IMG/VR virus record: IMGVR_UViG_3300023172_000252
Coordinates: 1-20,613 of that record
Reading direction: 5' to 3' (one strand)
Origin: a virus
Length of the DNA stretch: 20,613 nucleotides
The notes beneath the pieces were generated by a model. That model searched no databases, was not told where the DNA came from, and saw nothing but the letters and a program-made list of their open reading frames with translations. How positions within the stretch are numbered: position 1 is the stretch's first letter; each line of letters starts with the position of its first letter. Below are positions 1-5,511 of the stretch, in pieces. The translations under genes and the position numbers were made by a program.

Positions 1-885
1 AGTTGGTAAATCTACTGGTGCTGTGATTGGTGTATTTACTGCCTGTTGTAATCCACGCAATTCATAACCACCTTCGGAAATTACAGAAGAGCAGACTTGC
101 TTCATAGTGCTACTACTTGTAGTAATTCCAGTGTTGGCAATCTCATATCTCAAAGGAAGTGATGCTGTTGTGATATAAGTTGACTGAATTCTATTTGCGT
201 GGTGGAATGAATGTGCATGAACAAACCTACCATCAATCACAAATCCCATTCTGACTGTACCAAGACCAAGCCATTCAATATCCATCCAAAGAATTTGTGC
301 TTTGGAAATATCTAATGTAATACCAGAAACCCCAGTGCCATCTAACTTATCAATATTCCAGTCGTCTTGTGCTACCTCTGTTTGTGTTCCAGTAGATAAA
401 CTTCTTTCTACAAAATAAGGTGTTGTTCCATTAATCTCAAAATACATTCCATTATCAGCACCAAAATATCCAATTCTTTGTCTTAGATTTTCTTTTGGTG
501 TTGCAGGAACAAATGTATTTAAAACAAGCAAAGATTTGCCTGGTTGATATGAGAATGTCTTTGTAGTCTCTCTAATTACCGAACAACCAGCAGTAGTTCC
601 AATACCAATATTGACTAATCCTTGAGTAGTTGCAAATCCAACCGTAGAACCAGTGCCTACAATCAAACTCTCCCAAAGATTATTGTCTCTATATCTGTGA
701 GAACTATCAAATAGAGTAAGAGGTTGAGATATTCTGGTTCTTCCAAAAGCATCAGGATTTACACTTACTGGAAATCTATTGAGATTATCAACAACATTTC
801 CATCCCTTGTCGCTATCAAAGGAACTTCAAAAAGTGTTCTTTCTTGGTTTAGAAAGTCTTGTGTATTCTTATTCCACTGAGCCAT
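1..885 (-). CDS. Virion structural-like protein, 3' end cut by window edge
   Basis: The frame opens at an ATG (885-883) and runs without a stop for 295 codons to the left edge, so the C-terminus is missing. The start is well supported: GGAG lies six bases upstream and the ATG overlaps the TAA of the preceding gene (TAATG). The protein begins MAQWNKNTQDFLNQERTLFE. An Asp/Asn/Arg-rich stretch follows, then a Gly/Thr-rich beta region, a segment containing YQPGKSLLVLNTF, an RQRIGYFG motif, and a Trp/Gly-rich core (ILWMDIEWLG, then GFVIDGRFVHAHSFHHAN). I recall this core from large structural proteins of marine T4-like phages, but I know no demonstrated function. There is no signal peptide, membrane segment or catalytic signature. 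The late-gene context suggests a virion component, possibly a fibre or capsid-surface protein. That role is inference. Confidence 0.75.
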   Translation of the reverse strand, partial: MAQWNKNTQDFLNQERTLFEVPLIATRDGNVVDNLNRFPVSVNPDAFGRTRISQPLTLFDSSHRYRDNNLWESLIVGTGSTVGFATTQGLVNIGIGTTAGCSVIRETTKTFSYQPGKSLLVLNTFVPATPKENLRQRIGYFGADNGMYFEINGTTPYFVERSLSTGTQTEVAQDDWNIDKLDGTGVSGITLDISKAQILWMDIEWLGLGTVRMGFVIDGRFVHAHSFHHANRIQSTYITTASLPLRYEIANTGITTSSSTMKQVCSSVISEGGYELRGLQQAVNTPITAPVDLPT

Positions 886-1193
886 TAATCACTCCACGAT
901 AATCTTTCTGGTTGATATCTCTGTGCGTTTTTAATTCTTGAAGTATTTACCTGACCAGGATAAATGTTATGAACGATTGCACCAGGATATTCTCCCTGTA
1001 TCTGTTCTGCAAGTTCGTTCTTAGAAAGCATTTTGCCTTCTACTTCTAAACGGTAAAGTTTACCTTCCCACATAACATCGGCAAAGAAAGATTCTTGTGC
1101 CTGTTCTGGTTGGGAACCCCCTACGTTGAGGGTTCCATTGAAATCACCGTTGATGGTGATACTTTCGGATAGAAATTCTTGAAAACTTTTCAT
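885..1193 (-). CDS. Conserved-looking small phage protein, 102 aa, function unknown
   Basis: This small acidic protein starts MKSFQEFLSES. Similar short N-terminal leaders (MKSF-x-x-F) are common in marine T4-like phage proteins of the late region. Thr/Asn/Gly-rich strands follow, then an FFADVMWEGKLYRLEVEG segment, an ELAEQIQGEYPGA helix and IVHNIYPG. That second half looks like a small alpha/beta domain. I remember related cyanophage hypothetical proteins but no function. An alternative ATG lies six bases upstream (1199), but GGAG at 1200-1203 abuts that codon directly and sits six bases from the ATG at 1193, so the shorter form is preferred. The start overlaps the stop of the 541-residue gene (TAATG), and the stop overlaps the next start, so translation is probably coupled on both sides. 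Confidence 0.8.
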   Translation of the reverse strand: MKSFQEFLSESITINGDFNGTLNVGGSQPEQAQESFFADVMWEGKLYRLEVEGKMLSKNELAEQIQGEYPGAIVHNIYPGQVNTSRIKNAQRYQPERLSWSD

Positions 1194-2818
1194 TAGCATC
1201 TCCAGCGACGACGTGCCTTACAAATTGCCTTATCGGGATCTTTTGAGCAATCTATGTTATGCATATCTTGCTGACCCTTAGAGCGGGCACAGAAGGACTT
1301 TCTACGCTTGCTCCTACCAGGACCAGGATCCTTCTCAGTTACGGCAGTCTTAAGTTTAGAACCTGGGTTCTCACGACGGTAAGCATCAACTGCTTTTTGA
1401 CTCATACCATCAGTCTTATCTCCTTTATTAACCTTTTGCCAATCCTCACCCAGATCTTCTCTCCAGTTTGAGAAATTTTCTTTTGCGGTTTTAGTTCTTG
1501 TTGTGCTAAAAAGTCTCTTATTGTTTACACCAGGAATAAATTCTCCAAGTTCACCTTTTGCTTTGTCATTGTGATCGGTGTCACCATCAGCATCAGTATC
1601 AATTCTTTTAACTGCTTTAGCAACTAAACTCTTTAAATTGCCAGAAGGAATCTCATAGGATGAAAGACTCTTTTTAGGTACTTCTCTTAAACTATCCACA
1701 TTGTAGATTTTTTTACTTTTAATATTTGAGGCATATTCACCAGATTCACCTTTTGCCTTATCATAAACATCAATATCAGCATCAGCATCAGTATCAACTC
1801 TTTTACTTGCTTTAGCAACTATTTTTTTAAGGTTGCCAGATGGTACTTCATGTGGCGCATGCGCCTGACTATGAATTTCGTTTATTTCTTCACCTTCCTT
1901 TACACAATTGGGAACTACTTTGTCTCCTTTTTTCTTCATACCAACTTGTTTGTAACCAACCCAACATTTCTCATCGATAGGTTGACCACCTTTGATTGGT
2001 TCTGGTTCAATAAGATTCACTGTTTCAATTTCAAGTGCCTTGAAGTCTTCTCTCCAGTTTGAGAAATCATAACTCTCAGATTTATTTCCCCAGTTAGCGG
2101 CACCAACTTTACGACACTTTACAAGTGCCCCAGAAGCATATGCACTTGGCCAAACACTATAACGCGACTTTACTTTATTGTAGCAAGCATCTTTCTTACC
2201 ACTACCTTTACCAGGTTTATCTTTTGCTTCTGTTACTTCTACTTCTTCTTTCTTCATTTTCTTCTTTGGATCTGTAGAAACATAAGTCGGTTTTGCCGCA
2301 CCAGTTTTTTCTTGTTGTCCCGGATCTGCTGCTTTTTTTCTTCTTTGTGCAGAAAGTCTTTCTGCCTTGGTCATACTCGCTCTTTTTGCTGAAGAAACAC
2401 ATTTTGGTGTTCCTTCACCAGGTTCGTCACTGGCACAGGTTCCGCCAGTAACTACATTTACCCATCCTGCTTTACCGTCTTTTGATTTGGACTTACCAAA
2501 CCAATCACGAAGACCTTCTTCTTTGACAGTCTCTTCGTTGGTTACATAGTCTGCTGCAGTATCAATATAATCTGCTGCTTTGGTAATTTTGGATTGCACC
2601 CATGCCTGCAGATTACCTTCGCCTTTTTTACCCATCTTCTTCTGAAGACGTTTTGCAGCGTTCTGAATAGTTTTTACCTCAGAACGAGCCATAGAATATT
2701 CATGATCTTTTTTTTCTTCCGTCATTTTCTTTTTTCGCCCTTGACAGTGAGCACGCTGACTAAAACCTTTTGGGTTGTCGCAATCAATAGATTTTTTATA
2801 TTTTTCGGACCAACCCAT
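1193..2818 (-). CDS. Mosaic Cys-pair / calcium-loop protein of unknown function, 541 aa
   Basis: This is a very basic, Lys-rich soluble protein built from short modules. In order: an N-terminal C13/C25 module (NPKGFSQRAHCQGRKKK); a helical Lys/Ala segment (44-100); a GWVNVVTGGTC...PKC module (119-140) followed by a basic linker; a C212/C235 module around VWPSAYASGALVKC; an FSNWRED motif (252-258); a C285/C305 module (CWVGYKQVG...VPNC); two dockerin-like calcium loops (342-353 and 407-418) in a duplicated unit; a second FSNWRED motif (449-455); and a C-terminal Arg/Cys module with C510, C524, C533 and C541. The C-terminal module resembles what I recall as DUF6321. The twelve cysteines mostly occur as pairs. 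I recall the individual modules from marine phage and giant-virus proteins, but their function is unknown. It follows gp16 by 12 bases, where T4 has gp17. A DNA-associated or prohead-interior role would fit its charge but is speculation. No clear Shine-Dalgarno sequence precedes the start. Confidence 0.8.
   Translation of the reverse strand: MGWSEKYKKSIDCDNPKGFSQRAHCQGRKKKMTEEKKDHEYSMARSEVKTIQNAAKRLQKKMGKKGEGNLQAWVQSKITKAADYIDTAADYVTNEETVKEEGLRDWFGKSKSKDGKAGWVNVVTGGTCASDEPGEGTPKCVSSAKRASMTKAERLSAQRRKKAADPGQQEKTGAAKPTYVSTDPKKKMKKEEVEVTEAKDKPGKGSGKKDACYNKVKSRYSVWPSAYASGALVKCRKVGAANWGNKSESYDFSNWREDFKALEIETVNLIEPEPIKGGQPIDEKCWVGYKQVGMKKKGDKVVPNCVKEGEEINEIHSQAHAPHEVPSGNLKKIVAKASKRVDTDADADIDVYDKAKGESGEYASNIKSKKIYNVDSLREVPKKSLSSYEIPSGNLKSLVAKAVKRIDTDADGDTDHNDKAKGELGEFIPGVNNKRLFSTTRTKTAKENFSNWREDLGEDWQKVNKGDKTDGMSQKAVDAYRRENPGSKLKTAVTEKDPGPGRSKRRKSFCARSKGQQDMHNIDCSKDPDKAICKARRRWRC
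1200..1203 (-). promoter_or_regulatory. Ribosome binding site deciding the 102-aa gene start
   Basis: GGAG on the minus strand is six bases upstream of the ATG at 1193 and zero bases from the in-frame ATG at 1199. Only the downstream codon has workable spacing, and only it forms the TAATG junction with the preceding stop codon. Confidence 0.6.
1538..1657 (-). repeat. Calcium-loop repeat, copy B (residues 388-427 of the 541-aa protein)
   Basis: The second copy reads Y-E-I-P-S-G-N-L, then a helix, then the loop DTDADGDTDHND and KAKGELGEF. The Gly at loop position 6 makes it the more canonical of the two. The copies differ mainly by conservative substitutions, as expected for an old tandem duplication under selection. 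Confidence 0.7.
1733..1852 (-). repeat. Calcium-loop repeat, copy A (residues 323-362 of the 541-aa protein)
   Basis: This is the first of two copies offset by 65 residues. It reads H-E-V-P-S-G-N-L, then a Lys/Ala helix, then the loop DTDADADIDVYD and KAKGESGEY. Asp at loop positions 1, 3, 5, 9 and 12 matches a dockerin-type EF-hand loop. Confidence 0.7.
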
Positions 2819-2830
2819 TATAGGAAAATA

Positions 2831-3253
2831 TTATTCTTTATTATTTAGAAAACCTTGCTTGAGTAACTTTTGAAGTTCTGATGTTGAACCAACGAATACG
2901 GCATTATTGGTAACATTATTAGTAGTTTTTACTGATTCATCCTGAACATCTTTAAGTTTTTTCTGAAGATCAATTAATTTATCCGTTGTATCAGCAACAC
3001 TCTTAATTAACTGTCCGGCAACTTCATATGCTCTTGGACTTCCACCCTCACCAGCAAGTTCCATAATTCCATTAATTGCTTCCTGACCCTTTTCAATCAA
3101 TGAATATAAGTTGGCACGAGTGTATTCATAGTCCTTTTCGATATCTGGACCTTTTGGTTTTACAGTATCTATTTCTGCAGAAACTTTTTTAGTTTCTACA
3201 ATATCACTCTCAATATTGAGAGCTCTGTCGATGGAATCATAACTATCACTCAT
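2831..3253 (-). CDS. gp16: Terminase small subunit (T4 gp16-like)
   Basis: The protein has 140 residues; T4 gp16 has 164. The small terminase forms a ring that binds genome DNA and stimulates the packaging motor gp17. The match to T4 gp16 is visible in the central helical hairpin: an acidic D-(I/L)-E-x-D-Y followed by R-x-N, then the A-x(n)-SPRAYEV stretch (SPRHMEV in T4), then long Lys-rich helices (LQKKLKDVQDE; LHKDMKDITSE in T4). The N-terminal 35 residues and the Asn/Thr-rich tail before LLKQGFLNN look disordered, as in the family. It starts six bases after the gp15 stop. No good Shine-Dalgarno sequence is visible, only AAGAAG about 15 bases upstream, so translation may depend on gp15. 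The large subunit gp17 is not in the window and does not directly follow. Confidence 0.9.
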   Translation of the reverse strand: MSDSYDSIDRALNIESDIVETKKVSAEIDTVKPKGPDIEKDYEYTRANLYSLIEKGQEAINGIMELAGEGGSPRAYEVAGQLIKSVADTTDKLIDLQKKLKDVQDESVKTTNNVTNNAVFVGSTSELQKLLKQGFLNNKE

Positions 3254-3259
3254 AATTTA

Positions 3260-4063
3260 TTAAATGTCTTCTTGTTGGGTGGGACTATAAGACTTAGAAT
3301 CTGTAAAAAATTCCCAGGACTCACTAAATCCAAAATCGTCTCCAGCAGCTGGATCCGCACTAACTGGATCTGGGGTAACAGTATACCTCATTTCACGTTT
3401 TGCAGTTTGTGTATTGGTTCCACTGTAAACGTCTGCCTGAACTTTGCGAATAAGACCGTCAGTAGTCTCAGAGATTGGACCAAAGAGATAAGTTTTGGCA
3501 GTAAATCTTAATGTATATATCAAAGCTCTTCTAGTATTAAAATCTCCCTCATAGTCATCTTGAAAATCAACGCTATCTAAAATAATAGGGACATCTCTTT
3601 TTTCTCCGATGGAACTAACAAGATCTATCGTTAAATTAAAAGATGGTTGAAAAAATGGTAAAATTTGCTCAACTATTTGTAATGCATCATCGTTCAATTT
3701 GCTAAAGATGCTGAGTTCAAATCCAATATTATATGGAACTGGCATATAAACTTTTTTCAAATTAGTTCCATCAGATGCTTTAAATGTTTGTGTTACGCCT
3801 GCTTTTCTGGTTGGATCATATTGTATAGAAACCATTTCGAAAGACATTCTTGGAAGAGTAATTGCAATCGATTTATTCAAATTTGCTTGTTCCTGAATTT
3901 TTGTCAGGAATTTTTGCATTGGTCCGTAAGAAATACCAACCTTTGTTTCATCTAAAACAGTTCCATTTTCTTTGGAATGTCTAATGTAAATATTATTAAA
4001 CAAAGTTCCAAAACCAATAATGGTTTTTCTTATGATTTCGTGATAAAAATAAGTTCCTAACAT
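3260..4063 (-). CDS. gp15: Tail terminator / proximal tail sheath stabilisation protein (T4 gp15-like)
   Basis: The protein has 267 residues; T4 gp15 has 272. gp15 forms the ring that caps the finished tail tube and sheath and joins the tail to the neck. The clearest match to T4 is the segment FELSIFSKLNDDALQIVEQ and the following ILPFFQPSFN, which aligns nearly residue for residue with T4 (YELSIFTRYEDDMFQIVEQILPYFQPHFN). The N-terminus (MLGTYFYHEIIRKTI) and the ITLPRMSFEM strand also fit. The C-terminus is acidic and low in complexity. The ATG overlaps the gp14 stop as TAATG, with GGAG seven bases upstream, so this start is secure and coupling to gp14 is likely. A TATAAATA box inside gp14 lies about 175 bases upstream. 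Confidence 0.95.
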   Translation of the reverse strand: MLGTYFYHEIIRKTIIGFGTLFNNIYIRHSKENGTVLDETKVGISYGPMQKFLTKIQEQANLNKSIAITLPRMSFEMVSIQYDPTRKAGVTQTFKASDGTNLKKVYMPVPYNIGFELSIFSKLNDDALQIVEQILPFFQPSFNLTIDLVSSIGEKRDVPIILDSVDFQDDYEGDFNTRRALIYTLRFTAKTYLFGPISETTDGLIRKVQADVYSGTNTQTAKREMRYTVTPDPVSADPAAGDDFGFSESWEFFTDSKSYSPTQQEDI

Positions 4064-5511
4064 TAATATTCTCCAAATGGATTAGATTCTGTGAAGTCCA
4101 AAATAGAATCTGCTGCCGTTTCTATCTTTTCGTTATCATCGTAATAATCATTGTAAGTTTCACGATCGTAAGATTCTACAACATAAATTGCACCAGAATC
4201 TTGCCCAATAACTGTTTCTCCAACATTAAAGTTACCAGTATTTATAGATATTTGTAAATCTACAGGGGGATAAAGGGAACTAATATCAGTTCTTTCAGTA
4301 TAATTTCTAACTCTAGCGGTTACTCCAGAAGTTTGTCCAGTAATTAATTCGTTATAAGTAAAGGTTCCAATACCAGAAACTGGACTTGTAATAGTTACTG
4401 TTGGTGCCGCTGTATAACCATATCCCGAATTTATTATTTGTATCTGTGATACTTGTCCATTAGATACTATTGCCTTCGCAACTGCTGTTTGTCCAATAGA
4501 GGGACCACTTACTGTTACTGATGGAATTCCCTCACCATAATATCCTCTTCCAGAATTCGTTACTGAGAAGGACAATATGCCACCAGAAACAACTATTGCT
4601 GTTGCTGCTGCTCCAGTTCCACCACCTCCACTTATGGTTACCGTTGGTGGGTTTGTAGATGTGTACCCAAAACCTGCATTTGTTATTCGTACTTCTTTTA
4701 CAGATTGTACATTTCCTATAGAAGTTGTTATGGCAACGGCAGTTGCAGTAACACCTATTCCACTTGGTCCAGAAATTGTTACAGTTGGAGTGCTGGTATA
4801 TCCAGATCCATCATCAGTCAATATTATTTGACCAATAGATGGTAGAATAGATCCTATTCCAGATACATTAACACTAGCAGTTGCAGTTGCTGTAATTCCA
4901 GTTCCAACTAATCTGAGGGTTGTAATATATCCACCATCATCTACCGTGTTATCAACTTCCTCAAGCGCAGTATCGATAAGTTCATTTTCATATTCATACA
5001 ACTCGCAACTCAATTCATAGATATAATTTTTACCTAATTGATAAAATGGTTTTTCAAATTCCACTCTCTTGATTTCAAAAAGTCTTTCTCCAAGTGGAAA
5101 ATAAATTAAATCTCCTTCCTTTGGTCTTTCAATCAAATCTGCAAAGTCATATTCTGTTATAAACCCTTCTCTAATACCAGAAGATATACCCTCTAAGAAA
5201 GGAGCAATAAATTCTTCATATCTTTCTCTAGAAATTGTTAAACTAACTTCATTTTGCAATTTAAGTCCAAATTTGGTCATCAAATCACTTCCTGGAGCAT
5301 ATCCATCATAGTTGTTCAAATATGCTTCAATTAGAAAAACATCATCAAATTTTGAGGATTGTATTTCGTTGAGAATATTATCTGTTTTAAAAATTTTTCT
5401 TGGCAAATAATAAATTTCAATACCATAAATCTTCAATTGCTCATTAATCAAATCTTGAATGAGAAATTGTTCTGTATTAGATCCTTGAAGAAAAAATGGA
5501 TTTAAAGTCAT
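4063..5511 (-). CDS. gp14: Neck protein (T4 gp14-like) with large repeat insertion
   Basis: gp14 acts with gp13 to complete the neck below the portal, seal the filled head and accept the tail. Residues 1-195 match the family: ILNEIQSSKF, AYLNNYDGY, then KEGDLIYFPLGERLFEI and PFYQLGKN, which T4 shares as KEGDLIYFP...LFEI and PFYQLGQN. T4 gp14 has 256 residues and this protein 482. The surplus is a block at about residues 197-425 with four G-x-G-Y-x(n)-P-x-V-T units near 235, 280, 321 and 363, followed by two G-(E/Q)-x-x-SG-x-x-A segments (near 388-400 and 430-445). An acidic tail ends in ESNPFGEY. The block is probably a surface-exposed beta decoration on the neck (inference). It starts three bases after gp13. 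Confidence 0.93.
   Translation of the reverse strand: MTLNPFFLQGSNTEQFLIQDLINEQLKIYGIEIYYLPRKIFKTDNILNEIQSSKFDDVFLIEAYLNNYDGYAPGSDLMTKFGLKLQNEVSLTISRERYEEFIAPFLEGISSGIREGFITEYDFADLIERPKEGDLIYFPLGERLFEIKRVEFEKPFYQLGKNYIYELSCELYEYENELIDTALEEVDNTVDDGGYITTLRLVGTGITATATASVNVSGIGSILPSIGQIILTDDGSGYTSTPTVTISGPSGIGVTATAVAITTSIGNVQSVKEVRITNAGFGYTSTNPPTVTISGGGGTGAAATAIVVSGGILSFSVTNSGRGYYGEGIPSVTVSGPSIGQTAVAKAIVSNGQVSQIQIINSGYGYTAAPTVTITSPVSGIGTFTYNELITGQTSGVTARVRNYTERTDISSLYPPVDLQISINTGNFNVGETVIGQDSGAIYVVESYDRETYNDYYDDNEKIETAADSILDFTESNPFGEY
4239..4246 (-). promoter_or_regulatory. Possible intragenic late promoter ahead of gp15
   Basis: TATAAATA followed by CT on the minus strand matches the T4 late -10 box and its common downstream bases. 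It lies within the gp14 coding sequence (residues about 422-425, I-S-I-N-T), 175 bases before the gp15 start. It could give extra gp15/gp16 expression, but the codons explain the bases equally well. Confidence 0.3.
4381..4809 (-). repeat. Four G-x-G-Y beta repeats inside gp14
   Basis: The four units begin at residues 235 (GSGYTSTPTVTISGP), 280 (GFGYTSTNPPTVTISGG), 321 (GRGYYGEGIPSVTVSGP) and 363 (GYGYTAAPTVTITSP), with a period of about 43 residues. Between them lie Ala/Thr-rich strands and a V-x-x-(I/V)-x-(I/V)-(T/I)-N-(A/S)-G approach to the next motif. The protein repeat is clear, while the DNA is diverged. Confidence 0.85.

Follow-up and report, generated by a model that had tools for sequence, protein, structure and literature searches.

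Gene location and family

The window analysed here is a whole IMG/VR record of 20,613 bases. Homologues of gp14, gp15 and gp16 lie upstream, so we take the source to be a T4-like cyanophage. With only this length of record, gp17 and gp21–gp23 of the source phage are not visible, and statements on these genes are taken from relatives. The 541-aa ORF that a first-pass annotation had placed directly after the small terminase proved genuine; it starts 12 nt past the end of the gp16 ORF, on the minus strand (Table 1). Its stop codon overlaps the ATG of a downstream gene as TAATG, with GGAG immediately upstream. The longest ORF for this downstream gene begins at 1199, giving 102–104 aa according to the start chosen. 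In the gp14 homologue of the window (4063–5511) the N-terminal domain is followed by a Gly/Thr-rich, repeat-like stretch with matches to many families of virion structural proteins.

By sequence, the 541-aa protein belongs to PHROG_727 (E 9.3e-94), also T4-GC119, whose family entry carries no function, and to DUF6321. The latter is the sole Pfam domain in the protein (PF19846, residues 467–539, E 5e-11) and lies above the gathering cut-off (43.4 bits vs 28.5). No match was obtained for the protein by PDB sequence search or in NCBIfam, and a literature search on DUF6321 found no paper. The protein is basic (pI 9.45; 113 K+R vs 81 D+E), with acidic M8 modules.

The protein is not unique to the source phage, since tblastn matched it in at least 414 of 50,697 phage records, nearly all from Synechococcus and Prochlorococcus phages. 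Matches from pelagiphages and Microcystis phages in the spread list cover the C-terminal region only. The family gene lies between gp16 and gp17 in S-SM1, S-SM2, P-RSM4, S-T4, S-B43, DSL-LC02 and S-SRM01; the window shows the gp16 side of this position, the gp17 side being outside it. In T4 the gp16 and gp17 genes overlap, with nothing between them.

TABLE 1. Features of the window (20,613 bases); the last row gives related features in S-SM2 and S-CREM2.
Feature	Position	Strand	Basis
gp16, terminase small subunit (TerS)	2831..3253	-	PHROG_445 E 4e-56; Pfam DNA_Packaging
Modular Cys-pair protein, 541 aa, proposed head-internal polyprotein	1193..2818	-	PHROG_727 / T4-GC119
Module M1, aa 3-31, Cys13/Cys25; stand-alone CTS-tagged small proteins in relatives	2726..2812	-	module profile
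Module M2, aa 39-92, Lys-rich helical, without Cys	2543..2704	-	module profile
Module M3, aa 101-183, Cys128/Cys140; fixed family core with M4	2270..2518	-	module profile
Module M4, aa 207-247, Cys212/Cys235, nearly invariant; also on S-CREM2 ORF160	2078..2200	-	module profile
FSNWRED motif 1, aa 252-258	2045..2065	-	sequence
Module M5, aa 282-308, Cys285/Cys305	1895..1975	-	module profile
Module M8 copy 1, aa 324-363, EF-hand-like Asp loop	1730..1849	-	module profile
Module M8 copy 2, aa 389-428, EF-hand-like Asp loop	1535..1654	-	module profile
FSNWRED motif 2, aa 449-455, then protease-like LGE↓D	1454..1474	-	sequence
Module M9, aa 458-541, DUF6321 (PF19846), Cys510/524/533/541	1196..1447	-	module profile, Pfam
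Downstream gene, 102 aa, CTS N-terminus and M7-related domain	885..1193	-	ATG at 1193
gp23 N-arm mimic just past protease site, joined to Cys modules	SSM2_108 L012:41577-42005; S-CREM2 gp160 L102:8542-9435		

Modules and conserved cysteines

Profiles of nine modules were built from eight relatives and used to parse 84 distinct homologues, mostly from IMG/VR. The presence of M4, and of no other module, was the inclusion criterion. The 12 Cys residues of the 541-aa protein form pairs with spacings of 12, 12, 23 and 20, followed by a last module that holds four, which bears out the Cys-pair modules described from the sequence at the outset. In all unique instances among the homologues both Cys of M1, M3, M4, M5 and M9 are 100% conserved, the figure for M4 being circular because M4 served for inclusion, and the same is true of the three Cys in M6. 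Judged against the four metal ligands that a zinc finger needs in each module, most modules have two invariant Cys, M6 has three and the M9 of the window type has four. Two invariant Cys per module are suggestive of disulfides or shared metal sites.

Shuffling of modules is evident: the 84 homologues show 32 complete module orders. M3 stands ahead of M4 and M9 at the chain end across the homologues, and these core modules are nearly invariant in sequence, while M1, M2, M5, M6, M7 and M8 are gained, lost, moved and duplicated. Relatives also contain unprofiled pieces, including a DUF5661 domain, a DUF192 domain and a four-Cys N-terminal stretch with Gly/Asn repeats; others exist. In the S-SM2 homologue (L002:6093-8219) the DUF192 domain (Pfam E 4e-24) sits as an insertion that separates M3 from M4. 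In other cyanophages M5 also turns up next to, or within, the virion cytidylyltransferase, and M5-like sequences (44–50% identity, weak E-values) were seen in Halorubrum and Haloarcula tailed viruses (H228, H229, H231).

Two calcium loops had also been proposed for the protein. Two EF-like Asp loops are indeed present, DTDADADID and DTDADGDTD, one in each M8 copy, and the DxDxDGDxDxxD loop is kept in M8 across homologues. Pfam EF-hand models gave no match to the protein at E≤1, however, and calcium binding is therefore treated here as a sequence pattern only. Structure prediction was uninformative: AlphaFold2 gave a mean pLDDT of 42.7 for the whole protein (31-sequence alignment) and of 58.1 for M3-M4 (65 sequences), values too low for Cys-Cys contacts to be judged from the models. 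A Foldseek search against the PDB returned no match.

Junction motifs and protease-like sites

The FSNWRED repeat, already noticed in the first-pass annotation, holds up well beyond its two copies in the window. A generalised form, (S/N/D/Y)(N/D)WRx(E/D/Q), has 81 instances in 53 of the 84 proteins, where composition shuffles average 0.7, and its density is 18.4 per 10,000 residues in the homologues vs 0.14 in other ORFs of the same loci. It lies in the linkers preceding M4, M5 and M9, and is followed by PhixE within 0–5 residues in 69% of cases (shuffle 19%). In the S-SM2 genome the motif with a PhixE tail is found only in SSM2_162, which adjoins the virion cytidylyltransferase, and the clear case in S-CREM2 is the virion-detected ORF155 (ARYSWREELSE↓K; arrows mark the protease-like position). 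The same types of junction carry SFQQFQE, KSFGQFM or KSFEQFIGE in other homologues, which are like the capsid-targeting (CTS) peptides of T4. Compared with the T4 CTS, FSNWRED has three extra residues between the aromatic pair and LxE; that it is a head-targeting signal is our guess.

The cleavage motif of T4 gp21 is L/I-x-E (PMC9026906). We scanned for [LIVM]xE in a short window ahead of each module start; the homologues are related, and border counts are hence not independent. The motif was present at 99% of M4 borders, 82% of M5, 76% of M9, 74% of M3, 52% of M2 and, with a condition on the following residue, 100% of M1, compared with 9–28% in shuffles. Among 26 representatives less than 60% identical, the values before M1, M2, M3, M4, M5 and M9 were 100, 71, 61, 100, 77 and 67%, respectively (shuffles 13–34%). 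With the strict L/I-x-E form the representatives still showed 54–59% at the M4, M5 and M9 borders vs 15–16%, or ≈3.5-fold, whereas the M1, M2 and M3 borders have V/M-x-E instead and were not enriched.

The extended form [LIVM]xE↓[AGSV] occurred 231 times in linkers and 20 times in modules, which corresponds to densities of 1.27 and 0.08 per 100 aa. Every junction of the 541-aa protein has one candidate site: MTE↓E34, VKE↓E100, VTE↓A197, IDE↓K283, VKE↓G308, INE↓I314, LRE↓V379 and LGE↓D458, where the number is that of the Glu. Cyanophage gp23 keeps LTE/IAE at the position where T4 gp23 is cut. The S-SM2 gp21 (L009:2012-2662) ends in LDE↓QKLNLFNDFLNSI, a possible C-terminal targeting propeptide, and the end of S-SM1 gp21 is similar.

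N-termini of the capsid-targeting type

Residues 4 and 7 of the T4 CTS govern targeting, and residues 8 and 10 processing. The N-terminal test for internal proteins (IPs) asked for an aromatic residue at 4 and 7, I/L at 8 and E at 10. The N-terminus of the 541-aa protein, MGWSEKYKKSIDC, does not have this pattern. It is found in the adjacent 102-aa protein, which begins MKSFQEFLSE↓S where T4 ipII and ipIII begin MKTYQEFIAE↓A, and in stand-alone relatives of M7. Stand-alone M1 ORFs (51 aa) begin MKTFKQFQED/E, an approximate fit with Q at position 8. Such 51-aa ORFs, CTS-like plus M1, directly precede the gene for the modular protein in loci L064-L070 (e.g., L070:3971-4126).

For genome scans the CTS pattern was widened at position 5, since a narrower form missed the cytidylyltransferase, and was checked on T4 before use; at start codons in 50 kb of T4 it picked ipII and ipIII only. 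In S-SM2 it matched SSM2_065, SSM2_108 (the gene that directly precedes the GC119 homologue) and SSM2_161, the virion cytidylyltransferase, as well as a doubtful ORF of 49 aa. Among annotated genes of S-CREM2 it matched gp6, gp13, gp14 (GTG start), gp136, gp154 and gp175. The 49-aa ORF, as too short, and four further S-CREM2 starts, as not annotated, were set aside. All of the six S-CREM2 genes but gp175 are in the published virion list (hypergeometric P 0.003, partly post hoc because gp14 with its GTG start was added by eye); without structural genes the same test gave P 0.0003, again partly post hoc. The rule picked a SAM hydrolase, a kinase and the cytidylyltransferase in this phage, all reported in virions.

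A CTS-type gene lies downstream of the modular gene in 32 of 65 loci, mostly where the modular protein itself has no M7. A separate M7 gene is missing in 17 of the 21 loci with M7 inside the chain vs 16 of the 44 others (P 0.001). The S-CREM2 gp12 (L100:7704-10313), a virion-reported Cas9-like nuclease, carries the CTS-like peptide LRFASFMAE↓A close to the N-terminus and has GEPKTFRDFLN at its C-terminal end; judged by these motifs, it may be head cargo.

Family members in virions and a link to the capsid

Two family members are virion proteins of S-CREM2, whose proteome lists four peptides for ORF137 and seven for ORF160, besides eight for ORF136 (PMC10665884 Table 3). ORF137 consists of M7 and M9, lies between TerS and TerL and matches PHROG_727 with E 3.5e-20, its proteomic coverage being low (4.1%). 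ORF160 has the modules M3-M5-M4 (PHROG_727 E 9e-49), and ORF136, with a CTS-type start, adjoins TerS.

A second indication comes from record notes. The T4-GC119 record is annotated 'similar to Synechococcus phage S-SM1 protein'. In the S-SM2 record 18 proteins bear this note, GC119 among them; apart from a few unassigned ones, they are structural proteins or virion proteins named in the paper. The note marks gp3, 4, 6, 13-15, 18-21, 23, 25 and 53, as well as GC15 and GC190, which were named as virion-detected (PMC3037559), and is missing from gp16, gp17, gp43 and other enzymes. From this we infer that T4-GC119 is present in S-SM1 virions.

Some Cys modules are joined to a mimic of the N-terminal arm of the phage's own gp23. 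In SSM2_108 the CTS is followed by PTNSVGNGGYTSAGGQTVAGYD, which shares 78% identity over 27 residues with S-SM2 gp23 immediately past the cut site (E 5e-11). S-CREM2 ORF160 has a like stretch from its own gp23 (75% over 24 residues, E 2e-8) and matches PHROG_696, a major head protein family. M1 and M3/M5/M4 lie at the end of, or within, these two proteins, and the fusions thus link Cys modules with the capsid by a route separate from the CTS.

Absence from virions, together with Cys pairs that are not conserved among homologues, would have spoken against a structural or processed role; the pairs are invariant and homologues occur in virions. The first-pass annotation was partly supported overall. 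Its proposal of a polyprotein or multivalent binder with a role in the prohead interior is favoured by the virion homologues, the invariant Cys, the border sites and the confirmed FSNWRED repeat. A packaging-enzyme role is not supported: the gene has a fixed place between gp16 and gp17, but the records of these two do not have the virion mark that GC119 carries. A direct terminase role was considered and judged less likely.

A proposed head-internal polyprotein and its alternatives

We propose that the 541-aa protein is a prohead-targeted, head-internal polyprotein that is cut by gp21 and is functionally like the T4 internal proteins, a reading to which we give a probability of about 0.55. It would be synthesized late as phage head cargo and would enter the prohead core via short CTS-type peptides, those of its own junction motifs and/or those of its neighbours. 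The gp21 prohead protease would then cut after (L/I/V/M)xE at the module junctions, leaving small, mostly basic, Cys-paired mini-proteins with the DNA in the mature head, like T4 IPI-III. We infer the targeting from motif similarity and the cleavage from the placement of the sites. Contact with DNA and delivery into the host are put forward by analogy with T4, where internal-protein lysines touch DNA (PMC3012670). Since a CTS is missing from the N-terminus of the 541-aa protein, we suggest that it works like the T4 internal proteins and do not claim membership.

Like T4 IPI-IPIII, the proteins considered here are basic non-shell proteins that carry a short aromatic peptide, putatively for targeting, with (L/I)xE at its end, and the start of the neighbouring gene has the T4 CTS form. 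The T4 IPs, however, are encoded by separate genes, and each has a single N-terminal CTS that is cut off once, whereas the cyanophage ORF fuses many small modules with a candidate site per junction, and the mature parts share no sequence homology. The T4 prohead core proteins gp22, gp67 and gp68 offer a candidate likeness in that gp21 cuts them at several (L/I)xE sites (PMC9026906). They differ in being scaffolds whose fragments mostly leave, while the cyanophage pieces would be conserved modules with paired Cys, in which sites are almost lacking. In the giant phages SPN3US and phiKZ, head-internal proteins have propeptides that a prohead protease cuts several times after a short Glu-ending motif (PMC10052503), but there the propeptides alone are removed and no array of small folded modules has been described.

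Virion detection is silent on cleavage, and the chain could also stay whole as a flexible multivalent tether between the capsid inner surface and DNA, or as a neck or head component, with PhixE belonging to acidic linkers. The Lys-rich composition and the low predicted order between modules favour this, and the gp23 N-arm mimics joined to Cys modules in ORF160 and SSM2_108 are as expected of a capsid tether. We nevertheless find this rather unlikely, as PhixE at the borders is far above shuffles and nearly missing inside modules, and there are small free-standing M1 and M7 proteins, each equipped with a CTS.

Still less probable is a cytoplasmic assembly or packaging accessory of gp16/gp17 that is found in virions only as a contaminant. 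Members are reported from two phages by two laboratories, gp16 and gp17 are not in the S-CREM2 list, and modules recur beside a virion cargo gene, that of the cytidylyltransferase; these observations have to be set against the fixed gene position between gp16 and gp17, where T4 has nothing, and against the tendency of basic proteins to stick to virions, for which PMC10665884 gives a co-purification warning. We consider it very improbable that the modules are metal-binding or disulfide mini-domains acting on the host early (anti-defence or take-over) after ejection with the DNA, which is less an alternative to the head-cargo reading than an extension of it: in T4 the internal proteins, the anti-restriction IPI among them, are ejected (PMC3012670, PMC9026906), the CTS-type genes of S-CREM2 include SAM hydrolase and kinase in virions, and an arms race would fit the speed at which modules are shuffled and replaced, yet M3, M4 and M9 are nearly invariant, not fast-evolving, and no fold or defence link was found (NCBIfam, PDB sequence search, Foldseek).

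Implications for cyanophage heads

A broader and more tentative idea, to which we give somewhat less than even odds, is that cyanophages use a generalised T4-type head-loading code, in which an aromatic-pair peptide plus LxE at the N-terminus, at junctions or at the C-terminus marks all head cargo. The TerS-adjacent gene would then be a shuffling cassette whose many Cys-paired mini-proteins enter the head as a single chain, from which the prohead protease frees them. If such a code holds, the cargo would include the SAM hydrolase, the kinase, the cytidylyltransferase and even the Cas9-like nuclease. In the literature searched we found no description of a polyprotein of folded head cargo freed by a prohead protease, and in the sources searched none of module shuffling, border sites or targeting peptides in PHROG_727/DUF6321.

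T4-like cyanophages are among the most abundant marine viruses, and a role has yet to be assigned to many of the proteins in their virions. The head-internal polyprotein reading, if right, would give a testable job to a family present in hundreds of phage records and would extend the T4 internal-protein strategy to cyanophages in polyprotein form. A simple sequence rule would then predict which phage proteins ride inside the head.
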